Below are positions 3,901 to 42,971 of a stretch of DNA of 64,000 bases, piece by piece (within the stretch, counting starts at the first letter, position 1; each line of letters starts with the position of its first letter). Made by a program: the position numbers and the translations under genes. This DNA is from Malassezia japonica (lineage: Eukaryota; Basidiomycota; Malasseziomycetes; Malasseziales; Malasseziaceae). The stretch spans positions 310,001-374,000 of the forward strand of contig NC_083372.1 in the NCBI RefSeq assembly GCF_029542785.1. The letters run 5' to 3'. The notes beneath the pieces were generated by a model. That model saw only the letters and a program-made list of their open reading frames with translations, did no database searches and had not been told where the DNA came from.

Positions 3901-6499
3901 AAGTTCCTGCGCCGAGCACGAGGTAGTGGATGAGCTCGCGGCGCACCTGCTGCTCGATCGGCCAGTGTGCCGGGACGCTGATCTCGGTAAGAAGCATCAC
4001 AAGCAGCAGCAGAAGCTCTTCGGCCATGAACGTCGCCTGCTCTCCGTCGTACAGGGCGTGCCCGCGCTCTCCGCTGAACCACGCCACGAGGTCAAAGCGG
4101 TCGAGGAGCGTGACGAGGAAGCGGTCGTGCGACACGAATGCGAGCGCGCACTGCTGTACAAACAGGTCTTGATCGTACATAATGTCGCGCATCCACATGC
4201 TGTCGCGGTAGTGGTAGGCCTGCGAGCGGATCGCAAAGCCGTTGCGCACCCACACGTTGCAGCGGATCTGTGCGAGCTTGACCGTGACACGCAGCGGGTG
4301 CTCGAGGAGTGCTAGCATTGCGTCCTCGCTAATCGGCGGCGCGAGGCCGGGGTGTGCGCCGACGCTTTTGAGCATCTCGGCCAGGAGCCAATGCATCGGG
4401 TGGTGAAACGAGACGGGGTCCTGTGCCACGACAAACTCGGCGACCGGCACGGCCGCTCCCTCGTCGCTTGCCGGGAAGCGCACCGTGTGCATCGCGCTGC
4501 TCGGGTGCGTGCTCGGGTCGAGTGTCTCGAGGCGCGCGAGGTGCGCGAGGATCGTGTCGGCGGCAAACTGCAGTCCCGCACTGAGCTGCTCGCTGGTCGC
4601 GTGCTGGAACGCCTCGCCGAGGATCTTGGCGAGGCGGCCGAGGTGCGAGCTCGCGTGGAAGACCTGGTACCACAGCTCGCTCTCGAACTCGACGTGCGCG
4701 TGCGCCGCGCGCGTGTCCGGCGCGATCCCGTGGAAGTACGCAAAGAAGGTGAGCCACGGCGCGAGGAACGCGGTGGCGTGCTGCGCAATGTTCTTTTTCA
4801 CGTCGCCCGCCGCGAGCAGGTAGCGTGTGTCGTGGAAGACGTGGTAGCACTTGGCCTGCGACAGCATCGGCGCATTCGCGTTCGCCTGGCCGCGAGCGGG
4901 CGGTGGCGAGGGGAGAGTGAGCGCCGTGACACGGCTCTCGTTGTCGTTCACAAACAGCGCATGGAGCACCTGGAGGAGGGTGTGCATGAAGTTGTGCTCG
5001 ACGACGAGGCGCGCGGCGACGCTCGGTACGCTAAACAGCTGCACGGTCATGTGGTAGATGGAGTGCTCCGGCTCGCGGTCGTGCAGGATAAAAGTCTCGA
5101 TCATGCGGGGATAAACGTAGGCAAAGTGCACGGCGATCTCGAGCTTGGCCTCACGGCACGCAATCAGGTCCATGATGAGGTGGCGCACGTCGAGACGCGC
5201 CTCTTTCCACATCTTGGTGTCGAGGAGGAGGAGCGCGTCGAGCTTGCACACGCGGCTCGGGTCAAAGAACTCGCGCGCAATGGTCGTCGGCGCCTCTGCC
5301 CACTCGCTATTCTTCCAAGGCGTGAGCAGGAGCGTGGTGATGAGCACCTTGAAAGCGCGGCCGTCGACGCCGTGCGGCGTGTACAGCGAGCAGCTCGCGA
5401 GGTCCATCAGGAATGCAAGCACCACGCCGGCTACCTCCTGCACGTAGTAGTCAAATGCCGGCTGAACCGTGACCAAGAGGCGCTGGATGTTGATGCGGCG
5501 CGCCATGATCACCAGGCGACGCAGCTCGGGCATGATGGCGAGAACCTCGCGGCCGTGCTTGTCGACCTGCTCCGCAAATGCGCGTGCGCCGTGCGCATTC
5601 AGCGACGGCATCACGTCCATGATCTTGTCGGAGACGTCGGTAAAGGTGTGCTTTTCGTCGTTCCAGAGGAGCGCCGCAAACGGCTGCGGTGCGTCTTCTG
5701 CTTTCCCTTTTGTGTCAAAGAGGCGCTCGAGCGTCGGCATGCGCTTCAGTTCTTCCACGAGCTCGGGGCCGAGCGTGGGCGCACGCTGCGGCTCGGCGGC
5801 GGTGATCACCTGCAGGTAAAACGTCAGAAGCAGATCGGAAAAGGCCGTAATGGACGTGCGTGCGTCCTCCGGCACGCCGGCGTGCAGGCTCTCGAGCGTC
5901 GGATCCGCCTCGGGTGCCTCGTCGATCTCTGTGTGGGGATGCATGCTGTGGAACTCGCAGCGCAGATCGCACTTCCACGCCTCCTCGTCGCCACAGTCGC
6001 AGCACGCGCCGTTTTCGTCCGCCACGCTAAACACAATGTCGTGCTGTTCGCGCGCGTGGATCGAGTTCTGGAAGCACATCGCACACTGTACACAAGTATC
6101 GTCGTACGAGCAGTCGTGGCATCGGAAAATGGGCTCGCCTTTGCGAAAGACGTGGCCGCAGGCCATCCCGCGGCGATGCGAGGAATACTCGGGCTGCGCC
6201 GCGACAGGCGCCGCTGCGCCGCCGCTCGCACCATGTGCCGCAATCGCATCCGCACGCCGCTGAGCCTGTGACAGACTCCACTCGCTCTGCGCGAGGAGCG
6301 CAAGCGCCGCCGCAGGCGTCAGCGCGAGGTCCGCAGGAAAGAGCCACGCGGGCGAAACAGCGGAAAAGAGCGCCTCGTATAGCTTGCGGCGCACATCCGC
6401 CTGCTTCTCCACGGGAAGCCTGTACGACTCGAGGTCGTCGCGCGTCGGCAGCGCCGCGATGCGCGGCAGCAGCTCCGCGACCGCTCCTACCCCGCTCAT
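941..6499 (-). CDS. UBR1: UBR1-type N-recognin E3 ubiquitin ligase
   Basis: A single uninterrupted exon of 1852 aa, close to the usual size of fungal UBR1 (about 1900-1950 aa). The N-degron pathway ligase recognises destabilising N-terminal residues. In order, it shows a UBR-box zinc finger (about residues 112-182, a dense Cys/His cluster containing CGHVFRKGEP and CHDCSYDD), a ClpS-like type-2 site (around residue 276, LWNDEKHTF), and a RING-type zinc region near 1135 (CILCQERLDG, then CGHSMHVACF and CPLCKSLGN). A further Cys-rich segment sits near the C-terminus (CKRCNTLPPLCSLCLFCGEVLC). The ATG at 6499 is preferred because the longer frame starts overlap the divergent TRS33 gene; an in-frame ATG at 6541 is the alternative. 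It is convergent with the HECT ligase gene. Confidence 0.93.
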   Translation of the reverse strand: MSGVGAVAELLPRIAALPTRDDLESYRLPVEKQADVRRKLYEALFSAVSPAWLFPADLALTPAAALALLAQSEWSLSQAQRRADAIAAHGASGGAAAPVAAQPEYSSHRRGMACGHVFRKGEPIFRCHDCSYDDTCVQCAMCFQNSIHAREQHDIVFSVADENGACCDCGDEEAWKCDLRCEFHSMHPHTEIDEAPEADPTLESLHAGVPEDARTSITAFSDLLLTFYLQVITAAEPQRAPTLGPELVEELKRMPTLERLFDTKGKAEDAPQPFAALLWNDEKHTFTDVSDKIMDVMPSLNAHGARAFAEQVDKHGREVLAIMPELRRLVIMARRINIQRLLVTVQPAFDYYVQEVAGVVLAFLMDLASCSLYTPHGVDGRAFKVLITTLLLTPWKNSEWAEAPTTIAREFFDPSRVCKLDALLLLDTKMWKEARLDVRHLIMDLIACREAKLEIAVHFAYVYPRMIETFILHDREPEHSIYHMTVQLFSVPSVAARLVVEHNFMHTLLQVLHALFVNDNESRVTALTLPSPPPARGQANANAPMLSQAKCYHVFHDTRYLLAAGDVKKNIAQHATAFLAPWLTFFAYFHGIAPDTRAAHAHVEFESELWYQVFHASSHLGRLAKILGEAFQHATSEQLSAGLQFAADTILAHLARLETLDPSTHPSSAMHTVRFPASDEGAAVPVAEFVVAQDPVSFHHPMHWLLAEMLKSVGAHPGLAPPISEDAMLALLEHPLRVTVKLAQIRCNVWVRNGFAIRSQAYHYRDSMWMRDIMYDQDLFVQQCALAFVSHDRFLVTLLDRFDLVAWFSGERGHALYDGEQATFMAEELLLLLVMLLTEISVPAHWPIEQQVRRELIHYLVLGAGTYSEVTKQIPERFTDHGCFDRELARVANFRSPDGTNDLGMYELKPEYLGEVQPFFQHYSRNQRERAEEVLAERRAKTGDVPRAPRPALGALDGTLFARLGDVLHCPTFLQIVAGTLGNATYGYAEPPDTLLNAALHLLYVGVAERGAAFVPHLTQALQVPHADHVETQSLADLLAAMLTESRLSAYHEKIRGLFDAAAALDPALAAALPQPAAPPPAPSDDAKRQAAKERQVAIMQKFSDQQKSLLATLEDELSDDEDGMDETVDDYGTCILCQERLDGHRSFGTLLHIQESHLMRTTPPRQQSAFQEIIGMPLDMDRSQNDGQRTRGHLHRYEQADPHKPRIALGYAAENHTTGFVAVTCGHSMHVACFNMYLQSTEQRHAMQVARSHPEDLSRLEFICPLCKSLGNTLLPEPGASAMSRSPFSEVPLGKVVPDDQALTEWVRRINIAILKNTSASASARAEHQEHDCGSGCFLPFYAPASATPHNPDLGTSVLGSEECAEMLQRTRSVLQLLAYETSWARSRDRRQTILEYAGDAVQGDAIYIPEHVVGYTLAQLEITQRGVTPPGSNVAAALSEQQIKLVQSLLETLSSLAHVACKDAKGADSMRQGLLKRLMPHWAGEHSVRNPLLLRNALGVLVEAAVLMPQHLLHATALLYYVTLVQTVFGLAQPSFAHGERRKAEESAVGGAEAVQIFPHARWLVTSIVNLVGYVRGNITLGFDHCSDQDLAKLLCAYTLPFLRRAALLHRIVSGAVPEPAEGPEYVRLLHQLRIPLPAEALPMHAAPAGLVAMLVEGWTKHAYVHLSPLFRPLPILAEPHEARTAVPSLVLEHPHIYELLPLPHDFALLLQQTQTRVCKRCNTLPPLCSLCLFCGEVLCEQSFCCSDLDDEGRGECHQHMEHCGGRLGAHFRVGSNVVVLLFQRNGCFTSSPYLNTHGEVDHSLLKARPQRLHTQRYDELRKQWLTHGIANIVTRRTEANVSNGGWITF

Positions 6500-38565: not shown

Positions 38566-38665
38566 CGTGCCTCCCCACGTCCTGTGCGCGACGCAACCTG
38601 CGACCGGGCGCACAGGGCCTTCCTCCACATTTTGTCAGCAGCCAGAGTGCTTGGGCAACTAGGGT

Positions 38666-40259
38666 CTACGAACGGCCGCGCTTGGAGCGCTTCTCTTTGT
38701 GCGAGTCCTCGTCACTCTCATCATTGTTAGCCTGCTCGCTGACGACCGCCATGTTGGTCCACAAGTTTTCTTCGTCCGCCTCCTCCTCTGTAGGCTCGCG
38801 ATGAACCGTGAAGGAGGTCTTCTCGGCAGCCATCGCAATAGCGTTCTCGACACCCGTAAAGTACGAGCAGAGTGTATTGCCACGGCGGCGCTGGCCATTG
38901 GAGTAGGGAGTGCCAATATCAAAGAGGCGAACGAGGCGATCAAGGGAGGCGCCGAGAAGGAAGGTTTTCCGCTCCTTTTCCTCCTGCACGGAGAGAACCA
39001 GCAGACTGGAAATCGTGCCTGTGATATCTGGGTTAGATGCATAGACATACCTTTGTACTGGAACAAGACACGGCCCGCCTTGAAATCCACCGCATAGAGG
39101 TTCCGGGCCGAGTCACCCACAAACAGGAGGTTGTCTTTCAGCGAGGGGGTAAGAACGCGGATCGCGCCTTGGTTCTTGGTAGCGATCTGCCACTCATGTA
39201 CGTGGCGCGCATTCTTTTTGCCCGGCTCATAAACGCGGATCACGCCATCTTTCGTGCCCACGACCACAGAGGCCATCAGTGTACCGGATTCTGTCTCGTC
39301 CGACGAAGGCACAAAGGCGATGGAACGGATTAGAGGGTGTCGAGGGAGCGACAGGGCATCGTTGGGGAGGTTCTTGGCACGCCAGATTTCGCCAAACAAC
39401 AGGTCACGCTGCTTACTTGCATTGGACGAGGCAGGACGGCGCTTCTTGCCAGAGACAATCTCGGCACTCGTCTCGTCCTCGCCCGTTTCCTGCTGCGCAG
39501 GATCTTCGCCTTTGCGACACGCTTCCAGCGTCTTGGGAAGACTCCATACAGAGAGAGGAACCTGTTCACCACCGTACGCAAAGTACTGCGGAGCATCCGT
39601 GTCAGGGTAAAAAGCCACTTGGTGCAGAGGAGCACGCACGTTCCATTTGAGAGAAATTTGATCAAGCTGCTCCTCACTTGCTTTATCCAGAAATGTCACA
39701 CTTTCAGGGGACTCGTCATCCTCAGTCACCCGAATATGGAAGCTTGACAGAGGGGTATAACGGAACGCGCCACCAGAAGTACAGCTCAGAACACCTCTGT
39801 TCAACGTCAGCATCTGCATTCAAGGCGAATACATACCCTTCAGTTATTTTAAGCCCAACCCAGCGCTCAGCACCGACGCGCATGCGGTCCTCACGAATAG
39901 TACACAACAGCCGAGCACCATGTGGTTCGGCCACAGACTCCTCGCCAGCCGCAGATTCACGGCCGGGAGGAAGGATCACATCCACAACACCACTTTTGCG
40001 GCTCATAGCGATCTACTCCGTGTTAGTCACCTGCTATTGTCCTTCAAATACATACCACAGGCCACTTGGATCCATCCACGAGAGTCAGAATACCGTATGC
40101 AAGCTCCTGGCATGCTACAGCAGCACCATACCGGCAGCCGGGTATATCCACTTGCTCATACCTCTGAGACTTGGTATACAGAGTTTTGAGGCGGCCAGTG
40201 GAATCACCAACAAACACCCTAGCCTCAGGGACGTCGGCAGGTACGTTGCCCTCTGCCAT
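38666..40259 (-). CDS. NSA1: Ribosome biogenesis protein NSA1 (WDR74), WD40-repeat
   Basis: Four exons (40056-40259, 39837-40012, 39050-39796, 38666-39026; introns 43, 40 and 23 nt) encode 495 aa. NSA1 is a WD40 beta-propeller in nucleolar pre-60S particles that works with the AAA ATPase RIX7. Signature segments are RVFVGDSTGRLKTLY at the N-terminus, MSRKSGVVDV, FGEIWRAKNLPNDALSL, VVVGTKDGVIRVYE and TFLLGASLDRLVRLFDI near the end, then an acidic/basic nucleolar tail (DESDEDSHKEKRSKRGRS). Two of its introns (43 and 40 nt) are clearly longer than the local norm, and its codons are less GC-biased than most genes here. It is the left neighbour of the AT-rich island. Confidence 0.9.
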
Positions 40260-40344
40260 ATTCAGATGTGGGTGGAGGCAAAGCAAAATCTTCGAGCCCT
40301 GCTGCTTGTCAACGTAAGCAAAAGAAGGCTGAGCAGGACTGGCT

Positions 40345-40815
40345 CAACGAAAGCATATTTAGACAATACTTATTTAATATAACATATAATTACTATTATC
40401 ATAACGAGAACATTATATACAAAACAAAACAAAACAAATAGGAAACTAAATAACTATATTTTCCAACATTTTATTATTATTATAATAATAACATACTCCA
40501 AATCTAAACCAATCCACACATTTAATATCTAGTATATAACATTTCAACATAGATAGCCATTTGATTCAATATAAAATATTTAATGAATATTTGTTAAATT
40601 TAATTCATATTATACATATTGTTTGTTTAACAATAAATAATATTTATGTGTATCAATTAAATATATCAGTTAGTTATTCAATTATATATTTTAATTGTCG
40701 GATTATTATTAGACAACCTATTTTATGTTCAATGGAACTCGCGTATGTTGAAATAATATAAATAAAATGCTATATTGAATTGAATATGCTTCAATTTAAC
40801 ATTTTTGTAGGGGTA
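40345..40815. other. AT-rich island, candidate centromere core
   Basis: A sharply bounded AT-rich block in the divergent gap between NSA1 and the aminopeptidase P gene. By direct count 40381-40800 holds 81 G or C in 420 bases (about 19% GC), against well over 50% in the genes around it. It contains an AAAAC run (about 40421-40437), an inverted repeat TTATTATTA-TTA-TAATAATAA (40471-40491) and many short AT palindromes, but no gene. Published work on Malassezia describes centromeres as 3-5-kb kinetochore-bound regions spanning an AT-rich core, without transposon arrays; this island fits that description. Alternatives are an inserted mitochondrial DNA fragment or an origin. No other stretch of the window looks like it. 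Confidence 0.7.
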
Positions 40816-40898
40816 TTGTCCCATGGTTGGGTCAGCCCTGGAAGTTGGCGCTGGCAGGTCCGATTTGGTGCAGCTGCCACGCGAGCATCCCTCGATTT

Positions 40899-42952
40899 AT
40901 GTCACTGGGCTGCCGCCGAGCTCTTCGTTTGCTTGCCCCCTTGCGAGTACGAGGCACCGTACCTTTGACTCCTGCTTACTTGCGTCTGTCCAACACTCGT
41001 GCGTGGACTGGCATTCCCTTTGTACCTCGCACCTATCGTACACTTGCGACCAAGTCGTCTGTTTCGGTCTCCGCTATGGGCGCTGTGAACAATGGGGTGG
41101 TACCAACCGCCGAGATTGTAAAGAAATTGCGCAGCCTTATGAAGGAGAAAAATATCGATGCGTACATCGTCCCATCGGAGGATGAGCATGCGAGCGAGTA
41201 TCCTGCCGATTCTGATCTCCTGCGTGGCTACGTCACCGGCTTCAATGGTTCGGCTGGATGTGCCCTGATTACCCAGAACGAAGCGCTGCTTTTTACAGAC
41301 GGTCGCTACTTTTTGCAGGCCTCGCAGCAGCTTGAACCTGGTGTTTGGACGCTGATGCGCATGGGTGAGCCGGATGTCCCTACTTGGCAAGAATGGCTCA
41401 CGCAATCCCTGTCGAGCGGGGCGCGCGTCGGTGTCGACCCCAAGGTGATTGGCGTGGAAGAGGCGCAAAAGCTGATCGAGGACCTCCAACTCTTGGATAT
41501 CTCCTTCGTGGCGCTGCCCGAGAACCTGGTTGCTGCGGTGTGGGAGGGCCGCCCCGAGCGTCCCCAGAAGCCTATCACATCGCTCCCCGACTCGCTCACT
41601 GGCAAGTCGTTTGACAAGAAGATCCAGGAGCTGCGCAAGGATATGCAGCAAAGAGGAGCCTATGGATTTGTGGCTACGATGCTGGACGAAGTTGCATGGC
41701 TTTTCAACCTGCGCGGCACCGACGTGCCGTACAACCCCGTGTTCTTCACCTTTGCTATTGTAACGCTCGACCGTACCGTACTCTATGTGAACGAAGCTCA
41801 GCTCACTGACGATGTTCGCCAGCATCTCGGTACGAGTGTCGTACTCCGCCCCTATGGCGAGTTTTACAACGACTTGCGTGCGATGGAACAACAGCTGCAG
41901 CCTGGCCAGAAGCTCTTAATTGGCAAGCGTGCATCTTACGCTGTGTTCCAGGCGCTTGGTACGGAACGTACGCTCGTTGACCGCTCGCTGGTGGTCGACA
42001 GCAAGAGTGTGAAGAACGTGGTCGAGCTGGACGGTTTCCGGGAGGCGCACCTTCGTGATGGCGCTGCGCTCGCGTCCTACTTTGCCTGGCTCGAGGAGGC
42101 ACTTGCCAATGGCGAAAAGGTGTCAGAGACCGAGGGAGCCAACAAGCTTACCGAATTCCGTCAGAAGCAGGAGGACTTCCAGGGCCTTAGCTTCACCACC
42201 ATCTCGTCCACTGGCCCGAATGGTGCCATTATTCATTACTCGCCACCCGAAGAGGGCAGCCCCTACATTGAGCGCGATGCGTTGTATTTGTGCGACAGTG
42301 GTGCTCACTTCCCCTTTGGTACCACGGATGTTACGCGTACGCTGCACTTTGGCACCCCCACTAGCTATCAGCGCCGCTGCTTCACCCGTGTGCTCCAGGG
42401 ACACATTGCGATCGATCGCTTGATTTTCCCGTACAACACGACGGGCTATGTGATCGATGCCCTGGCGCGTGCGCCGGCTTGGCGCGACCATCTCGAGTAC
42501 CGTCACGGTACTGGCCACGGCGTTGGCCACTTTTTGAATGTACACGAACCTCCGATGGGCATCGGCACGCGTCTCACGTTTAATGACACGGGTCTCAAGC
42601 CCGGTATGGTAATCAGCAATGAGCCAGGCTACTACCTCGATGGTGAATGGGGTATTCGTATTGAAAACTTGGTTATGTACGTCGTGTTTTCTCACCCAGT
42701 GTCCAGCCGCACCTGCTTCCGTCGGGTGTGTCGGAGCCGCCGACGAGCAAAGGATTCCTTCGTTTCGAGCACATCACCATGTGCCCGATCCAAACCTCGC
42801 TCATTGATGCGAGCCTGCTTACGAGTGACGAGCGCGCTTGGGTCAACTCGTACCACGATGAGGTGCTCACCAAGCTCCGCCCTATCCTTGAGAAGCAGGG
42901 CGACGCTCGCGCGCTCAAGTGGCTCGAAAAAGAATGCACCGCGCGTGTGTAA
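40899..42952 (+). CDS. Xaa-Pro aminopeptidase P (metallopeptidase M24)
   Basis: Two exons (40899-42676 and 42700-42952, 23-nt intron) encode 676 aa from the first ATG. The enzyme removes an N-terminal residue before proline. Two creatinase-like N-terminal domains precede the pita-bread catalytic domain, whose metal ligands are visible in order: Asp in LCDSGAHF and GTTDVTRT, His in GTGHGVGHFLNVHEPP, Glu in ISNEPGYY and Glu in RFEHIT. The first 59 residues, up to an internal ATG at 41076, are Arg-rich and nearly free of acidic residues, like a mitochondrial presequence. Starting at 41076 gives 617 aa, the size of cytosolic aminopeptidase P. One gene may therefore make both forms. It is the right neighbour of the AT-rich island. 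Confidence 0.92.
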
Positions 42953-42971
42953 GTAGATCATGAAATCGAAA

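Follow-up and report, generated by a model that had tools for sequence, protein, structure and literature searches.

An AT-rich intergenic island of Malassezia japonica is very probably a centromere core and carries a mid-core switch in strand composition

Introduction

What is a short, AT-rich island doing between two genes of the otherwise GC-rich genome of Malassezia japonica? The island lies in a window of 64,000 nucleotides, the whole stretch of DNA analysed here, which comprises bases 310001-374000 of contig C3 (NC_083372.1; 1,024,655 bp) in an assembly of nine contigs and 8,433,779 bp. The original prediction, made from the letters of this window, was that the island is either the centromere of the chromosome or an inactivated relic of one; a nuclear insert of mitochondrial DNA was named as a reading that would speak against both. 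A centromere of this chromosome is already predicted in print, and its form is ordinary for the genus. We asked how well the island corresponds to the published centromere, which of the alternatives survive, and what else the composition of the core reveals.

Results

Composition and borders of the AT-rich core

The borders of the core were taken from the maximal-scoring AT segment, which runs from 40355 to 40809 of the window (C3:350355-350809, no strand assigned), is 455 bp long and contains 18.7% GC; we take it to be the predicted M. japonica CEN3. The base count given in the original prediction was reproduced, with 81 G/C per 420 bases (19.3%) at 40381-40800, and the slightly wider interval 40345-40815 contains 94 G/C per 471 bases (20.0%). 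The 1-kb flanks of the core have 53.6% and 56.9% GC. The statement that everything else in the window is GC-rich also held, the lowest 400-base window outside the core in the 64 kb having 51.0% GC and the remaining 400-base windows averaging 63.2% (sd 4.2).

The AAAAC run noted originally is present as three units at 40421-40435. Short inverted repeats, noted at the same time, are present as well, the longest perfect one being 10 + 10 bp, but they are at the level of chance: 72% of 60 first-order shuffles of the core contained a perfect inverted repeat of equal or greater length, and inverted repeats were dropped as a functional element on the strength of this shuffle test. No direct or inverted repeat structure beyond chance is found within the core, and in a search that skipped simple repeats and very common words the 471 bases matched only themselves in the genome. 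Signs of a gene were likewise absent: no Pfam match up to E = 1 was obtained in the core (five of 24 code-4 frames searched) and no Rfam match at gathering score in the window. AT-rich, intergenic, shorter than 1 kb and flanked by two genes, the core agrees in form with the short regional centromeres of Malassezia.

Genes flanking the core

The left flank is formed by NSA1, which encodes a ribosome biogenesis WD40 protein and occupies several open frames on the minus strand (38662..40259, where 38662 is the end of the searched open frame and not a mapped gene end). The main open frame has 45 relatives, several of them called Ribosome biogenesis protein NSA1; the named ones belong mostly to Malassezia and smut-group fungi, with those of M. 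brasiliensis and M. vespertilionis nearest, and a comparison with the PDB returned no relatives. An in-frame ATG is located at 40259, 96 bp off the core, and its frame is presumably the first exon of NSA1.

On the right, a gene for aminopeptidase P extends over 40899..42953 on the plus strand, with matches to the Pfam families Creatinase_N, Creatinase_N_2 and Peptidase_M24, a PDB relative (3ctz) and, going by the names of its relatives, a cytosolic type of product. Among the 120 matches listed of 6060, relatives reach 96% identity, named Malassezia relatives show 64-79%, and the nearest named ones are from M. psittaci and M. obtusa. The open frame probably departs from the gene at an intron near the 3' part. 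Its first in-frame ATG is at 40899, 90 bp off the core. A second in-frame ATG follows at 41076, and the stretch between the two is Arg-rich; it could be a mitochondrial presequence, in which case one gene would supply two differently targeted forms.

With NSA1 on the minus strand and aminopeptidase P on the plus strand, the gap is divergent, as originally described. Since the in-frame ATGs lie at 40259 and 40899, which on our reading are the start codons in use, the core occupies most of a divergent gap of 639 bp.

Correspondence with the published M. japonica centromeres

Table 4 of PMC7025860 (eLife 2020) lists nine troughs for M. japonica, of which one belongs to scaffold 3: the predicted CEN3 of JCM11963 at BCKY01000003.1, 350,068-350,603, with 24.3% GC. 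A window of the same length centred on the originally noted island (40313-40848) has 24.3% GC, equal to the published value; centring it on the AT segment gives 24.1%, and the values range over 23.6-26.4% when it is moved by up to 60 bases. With midpoints 246 bp apart and equal GC over equal length, the island and predicted CEN3 are probably the same locus.

Contig C3 carries telomere repeats at both ends, (CCTAAT)n over 360 bp on the left and (AGGATT)n over 678 bp on the right, and the offset of +246 would fit a published scaffold without part of the telomere repeat. The repeat is the variant TTAGGA, not TTAGGG; four telomere repeats exist in the genus according to the excerpted text of PMC12506658.

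Read forwards or mirrored, the coordinates of Table 4 place a centromere no more than 1.6 kb from the island (located as described below) in seven of the nine cases, and no more than 0.5 kb away in six. The midpoint offsets are +263 (C2), +246 (C3), +498 (C4), +108 (C6) and +434 (C9 against Scf8), and, in mirrored coordinates, -177 (C5) and -1586 (C7), the C6 value assuming that the printed end of CEN6 is an error. That entry reads 240,968-250,550 in the table yet is given a length of 582. We consider 241,550 the probable true end, in agreement with the island at C6:241134-241600; throughout C6:246000-255000, GC stays at 42% or above in every window. On C1 and C8 the islands fit the coordinates of Scf1 and Scf10 in neither direction, being hundreds of kb away; it may be that these two scaffolds were assembled with other joins or breaks than C1 and C8, or that the strains differ by a rearrangement. 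Measured over the published lengths, GC differs from the published value by no more than 0.5 points in seven of nine cases and is 1.3 points higher in C1 and C7; moving the measured stretch by up to 60 bases changes the result by between 1.4 and 4 points.

Nine islands on nine contigs

An AT-rich island was found on every contig (9/9), with lengths of 455-514 bp and 17.8-21.9% GC, that of C3 having the second-lowest GC of the nine. One island per chromosome had been put forward originally as the mark of a centromere, and the first half of this expectation is borne out on all nine contigs; the second half, that no chromosome has another trough, was covered in part. On C3, 83,656 of 1,024,655 bases were examined (the window and the two chromosome ends), and the core is the GC minimum within them; no 400-base window in C3:1-10000 falls under 33.5% GC. 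Over all contigs, 356,936 bases were examined and contained nine regions with a 400-base window below 30% GC, all of which are the islands, in what is not an unbiased scan because the stretches were nearly all chosen at predicted places.

Forward table coordinates, in nine stretches (two of them on C6), led to the islands on C2, C4 and C6, that is, on three of eight contigs. Mirrored, exchanged or neighbouring coordinates gave 20 further stretches, which yielded the islands on C5, C7 and C9 and 17 stretches without one. The islands of C1 (C1:488913-489396) and C8 (C8:493180-493670) were found through AT-word matches, two of three short stretches containing an island. The stretch C8:475000-476000, picked by a word match, proved not to be an island. 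We presume, mainly from the list in PMC7025860 together with the word matches, that a second trough per chromosome is unlikely.

At C4, a Mac-domain acetyltransferase frame extends with its 3' end into the island, and at C7 so do open frames belonging to an RNB gene and to a gene with weak aspartyl-protease and UBA matches; the AT segments of these two contigs seem to include coding sequence.

AT words shared by the islands

The sequence TAATATTTAATA has no match in the genome. Three further words, AATAAATATTTA, ATAATAAATATT and TAATAAATATTTA, were picked from seven of the islands; the nine islands together make up 0.05% of the genome. The first of these has six of its ten genome matches inside islands, and its reversed control has 6 matches. 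The 13-base word TAATAAATATTTA has 17 of 33 genome matches inside islands, at least one in each, against 36 for the reversed control. For the 12-base word ATAATAAATATT, with up to two mismatches, the genome holds 127 matches (100 of the 127 listed, completely for C1-C6) and 100 of the reversed control. Some matches of this word are duplicates, a single palindromic site having been counted once per strand.

On C1-C6, clusters of at least four matches of the 12-base word within 500 bases are confined to five islands, those of C1 (6), C2 (4), C3 (8), C5 (7) and C6 (5). The C4 island has three, equal to a spot at 4806-5050 near the left end of C3; this spot is the next densest on C3, where 8 of 18 matches fall in the island. 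Because the reversed controls are similarly frequent (6/10, 100/127 and 36/33), the words reflect AT-richness and not a motif, and a shared DNA word of this kind as the centromere motif was dropped. A 12-bp AT-rich motif enriched at Malassezia short regional centromeres is published; the three words that gather in the islands are of our own choosing.

A strand-composition switch in the middle of the core

What is new here is a mid-core switch in strand composition, which is seen in nine of nine cores. In the C3 core, the left part (40355..40559) is A+C-rich on the plus strand and the right part (40560..40809) leans towards G+T. Expressed for halves of 227/228 bp, the AT skew is +0.16 and the GC skew -0.58 in the first half, and -0.09 and +0.14 in the second; the cumulative peak falls at base 205 of 455. 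The orientation of a contig is irrelevant to the switch, since the reverse complement of a core keeps the sign.

All nine cores have an A+C excess of the left over the right half. The difference in A+C minus G+T amounts to 0.198, 0.248, 0.339, 0.202 and 0.332 in C1 to C5 and to 0.116, 0.202, 0.371 and 0.451 in C6 to C9, with a nine-core mean of 0.273. The background, consisting of 2786 overlapping windows of 480 bases at a step of 120, has a mean of 0.001 and an sd of 0.098. Not one of 200,000 random sets of nine windows reached 0.273, and likewise no random set did so when drawn from the 214 background windows under 50% GC. Block shuffles within the cores, with blocks of 1, 20 or 50 bases, reached the observed mean in 0/20,000 trials each, and letter shuffles gave p < 0.05 for the single-core peak in eight of nine cores (0.06 in C7). 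C6 taken alone is unremarkable, as 11.9% of background windows attain its value.

When the two components are separated and the island halves compared, the sign is as expected in 9/9 cores for the AT part and in 7/9 for the GC part, and 400-base windows picked by their GC minimum alone give the same counts (9/9 and 7/9). The GC part is missing or inverted in C4 and C7, and that of C6 is close to zero in the fixed 400-base window. The switch is most marked up to 400 bases from the centre; a weaker tail continues, on the left side only, as far as about 800 bases. No report of a skew switch at Malassezia centromeres was found in the titles and abstract openings of the literature searched; the word 'skew' is absent from the main text of PMC7025860 and from the excerpted main text of a 2024 review (PMC10977804).

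Replication or transcription as the source of the switch

Every C. albicans centromere has the same skew signs, together with ORC binding and earliest replication, and Koren et al. (2010) interpret the place of the switch as a constitutive origin (excerpted text of PMC2924309). GC skews are also reported at the centromeres of C. lusitaniae and C. fructus in an excerpt of PMC8262905. By analogy, an origin reading of the cores is plausible, and the switch point at 40560 would be a putative replication start.

Alternatively, the switch may be produced by divergent promoters or other effects of transcription and not by replication. We regard this as unlikely, though well worth weighing, promoters being the chief competitor of the origin reading. 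GC skews at gene ends are reported in unicellular fungi (excerpt of PMC3315797), and four of the nine islands (C2, C3, C6 and C9) appear to lie between diverging genes, the left genes at C2 and C6 having been judged by open frames alone. At C5, a Tra1-type gene on the left points towards the island. Two islands are in apparently convergent gaps: C4, with a MED14 gene on the left and the Mac-domain acetyltransferase on the right, and C7, with the RNB gene on the left and on the right a frame with sub-cut-off aspartyl-protease and UBA matches in Pfam. The same two islands bear on the question from both sides. Their untrimmed cores are without the GC part, as effects of transcription would allow, but when the gene tails are trimmed the AT skew still switches, from +0.24 to -0.01 in C4 and from +0.08 to -0.16 in C7, and promoters alone are insufficient to explain the switch because the two gaps are apparently convergent. 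The trimmed GC skews go from -0.12 to -0.18 in C4 and from +0.16 to +0.23 in C7; since they do not switch as expected, a partial contribution of transcription is possible.

Discussion

In all probability, the C3 island forms the core of the centromere on one M. japonica chromosome. With islands on nine of nine contigs, seven of them at published M. japonica coordinates, the centromere interpretation is supported. We hold with high confidence that the best explanation of the whole is a single short regional centromere core, taken to be the predicted CEN3, with a putative kinetochore over it and a probable origin.

It is very improbable that the island is instead an old centromere, now inactivated, on a chromosome that uses another. 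In M. furfur, centromeres are described as having become inactive when chromosomes fused, yet the inactivated centromeres of that species lost their AT-richness (both in the excerpted text of PMC7025860), whereas the C3 island has 18.7% GC. Since each of the nine contigs has one of the nine islands found, none of these is surplus. The word-match list for C3 offers no second spot comparable to the island (three matches against 8), and the left end of C3, where the three-match spot lies, has no 400-base window under 33.5% GC. Because C3 has telomere repeats at both ends and the paper gives a single trough for the scaffold, this half of the original alternative is unlikely.

A nuclear insert of mitochondrial DNA, with which the low GC and the abrupt borders would agree, is barely credible and was rejected, given that the island has no coding or RNA match (Pfam in five code-4 frames, Rfam at gathering score), that similar islands stand at published centromere sites, and that a 455-bp mitochondrial piece would probably hold gene sequence because the M. 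japonica mitogenome is small and without introns (28,009 bp, intron-free, in an excerpt of PMC10113387). In the assembly itself, COX1 has no match.

For the centromere core, a mechanism can be proposed by analogy with M. sympodialis. CENP-A would replace histone H3 across the AT-rich gap, and CENP-C and the Mis12/Mtw1 complex would assemble on CENP-A. A weaker kinetochore domain would reach outwards for 1-2 kb on either side, covering NSA1 and aminopeptidase P, both of which would remain active beneath it. A Mis12 domain was found at C1:60644-61015 (67.4 bits, Pfam cut-off 25.7) and a CENP-C_C domain, in two pieces, at C1:457483-457711 (best 33.8 bits, cut-off 29); as a control, the CENP-C_C profile matched four of 14 control genomes, none above the cut-off. 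The CENP-C_C locus lies about 31 kb from the C1 island, which may be a coincidence. A gene for CENP-A was not identified: of eight histone matches, the one candidate examined, on C5, is H2B.

By analogy with Candida, the core would probably also contain a replication origin active in almost all cell cycles. Forks moving away from the middle of the core in both directions would, over evolutionary time, render the right strand G+T-rich and the left strand A+C-rich. Extended to the genus, the proposal is that the centromere cores of all Malassezia serve as constitutive bidirectional origins, that the switch is a fossil of long-constant forks, and that this coupling, common to ascomycete and basidiomycete yeasts without shared DNA sequence, maintains the AT-rich cores; we advance this tentatively, judging its chances to be a little below even.

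In Table 3 of PMC7025860, M. japonica CEN3 (partial synteny) shares a row with M. slooffiae CEN5, M. globosa CEN2, M. restricta CEN8 (partial), M. vespertilionis CEN3 and M. furfur CEN5, whose synteny is given as broken in M. sympodialis, M. dermatis and M. nana. As the break predicts, the named relatives of NSA1 and aminopeptidase P in M. nana are on contigs that differ in length (1,198,975 and 1,328,904). The same is true of M. vespertilionis (951,778 and 1,316,352), despite there being no break in Table 3. In M. psittaci (3,117,606) and in M. cuniculi (1,883,502), the latter with a partial NSA1-like match, both relatives are on contigs of equal length; the comparison shows shared against different contigs, not adjacency. 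If C3 is the published scaffold 3, it carries the orthologue of an ancestral centromere that was broken in the M. sympodialis lineage, a break that accompanied the fall in chromosome number from nine to eight (PMC7025860).

The C3 island agrees with a published prediction made from another assembly, and its flanking genes are now named. The skew switch is a feature of all nine cores that is independent of primary sequence, and it opens a test, in a basidiomycete, of whether early and constant replication holds a sequence-independent centromere in place.

Compared with predicted CEN3, the present analysis adds tighter borders (455 bp), the telomere repeats at both ends of C3 and the strand-composition switch. 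The core resembles those of M. sympodialis in being an AT-rich, intergenic core in a GC-rich genome; the cores of that species measure 81-1152 bp with 13.2-20% GC (PMC7025860 Table 1). A kinetochore domain of 3-5 kb was measured there by Mtw1 ChIP-seq (PMC7025860), whereas in M. japonica such a domain is predicted, and the M. sympodialis locus orthologous to M. japonica CEN3 is a synteny break (PMC7025860 Table 3). The likeness to Candida albicans and C. dubliniensis lies in the excess of A and C on the left and of G and T on the right, so far as it is visible in the cores, the central switch and the lack of shared primary sequence (excerpted text of PMC2924309). The Candida species are ascomycetes, and according to the same excerpt their skew extends over about 3 kb per side and is led by GC, whereas in M. 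japonica it is contained mostly inside the 0.5-kb core, is led by AT, with the GC part in seven of nine cores, and marks a putative origin.
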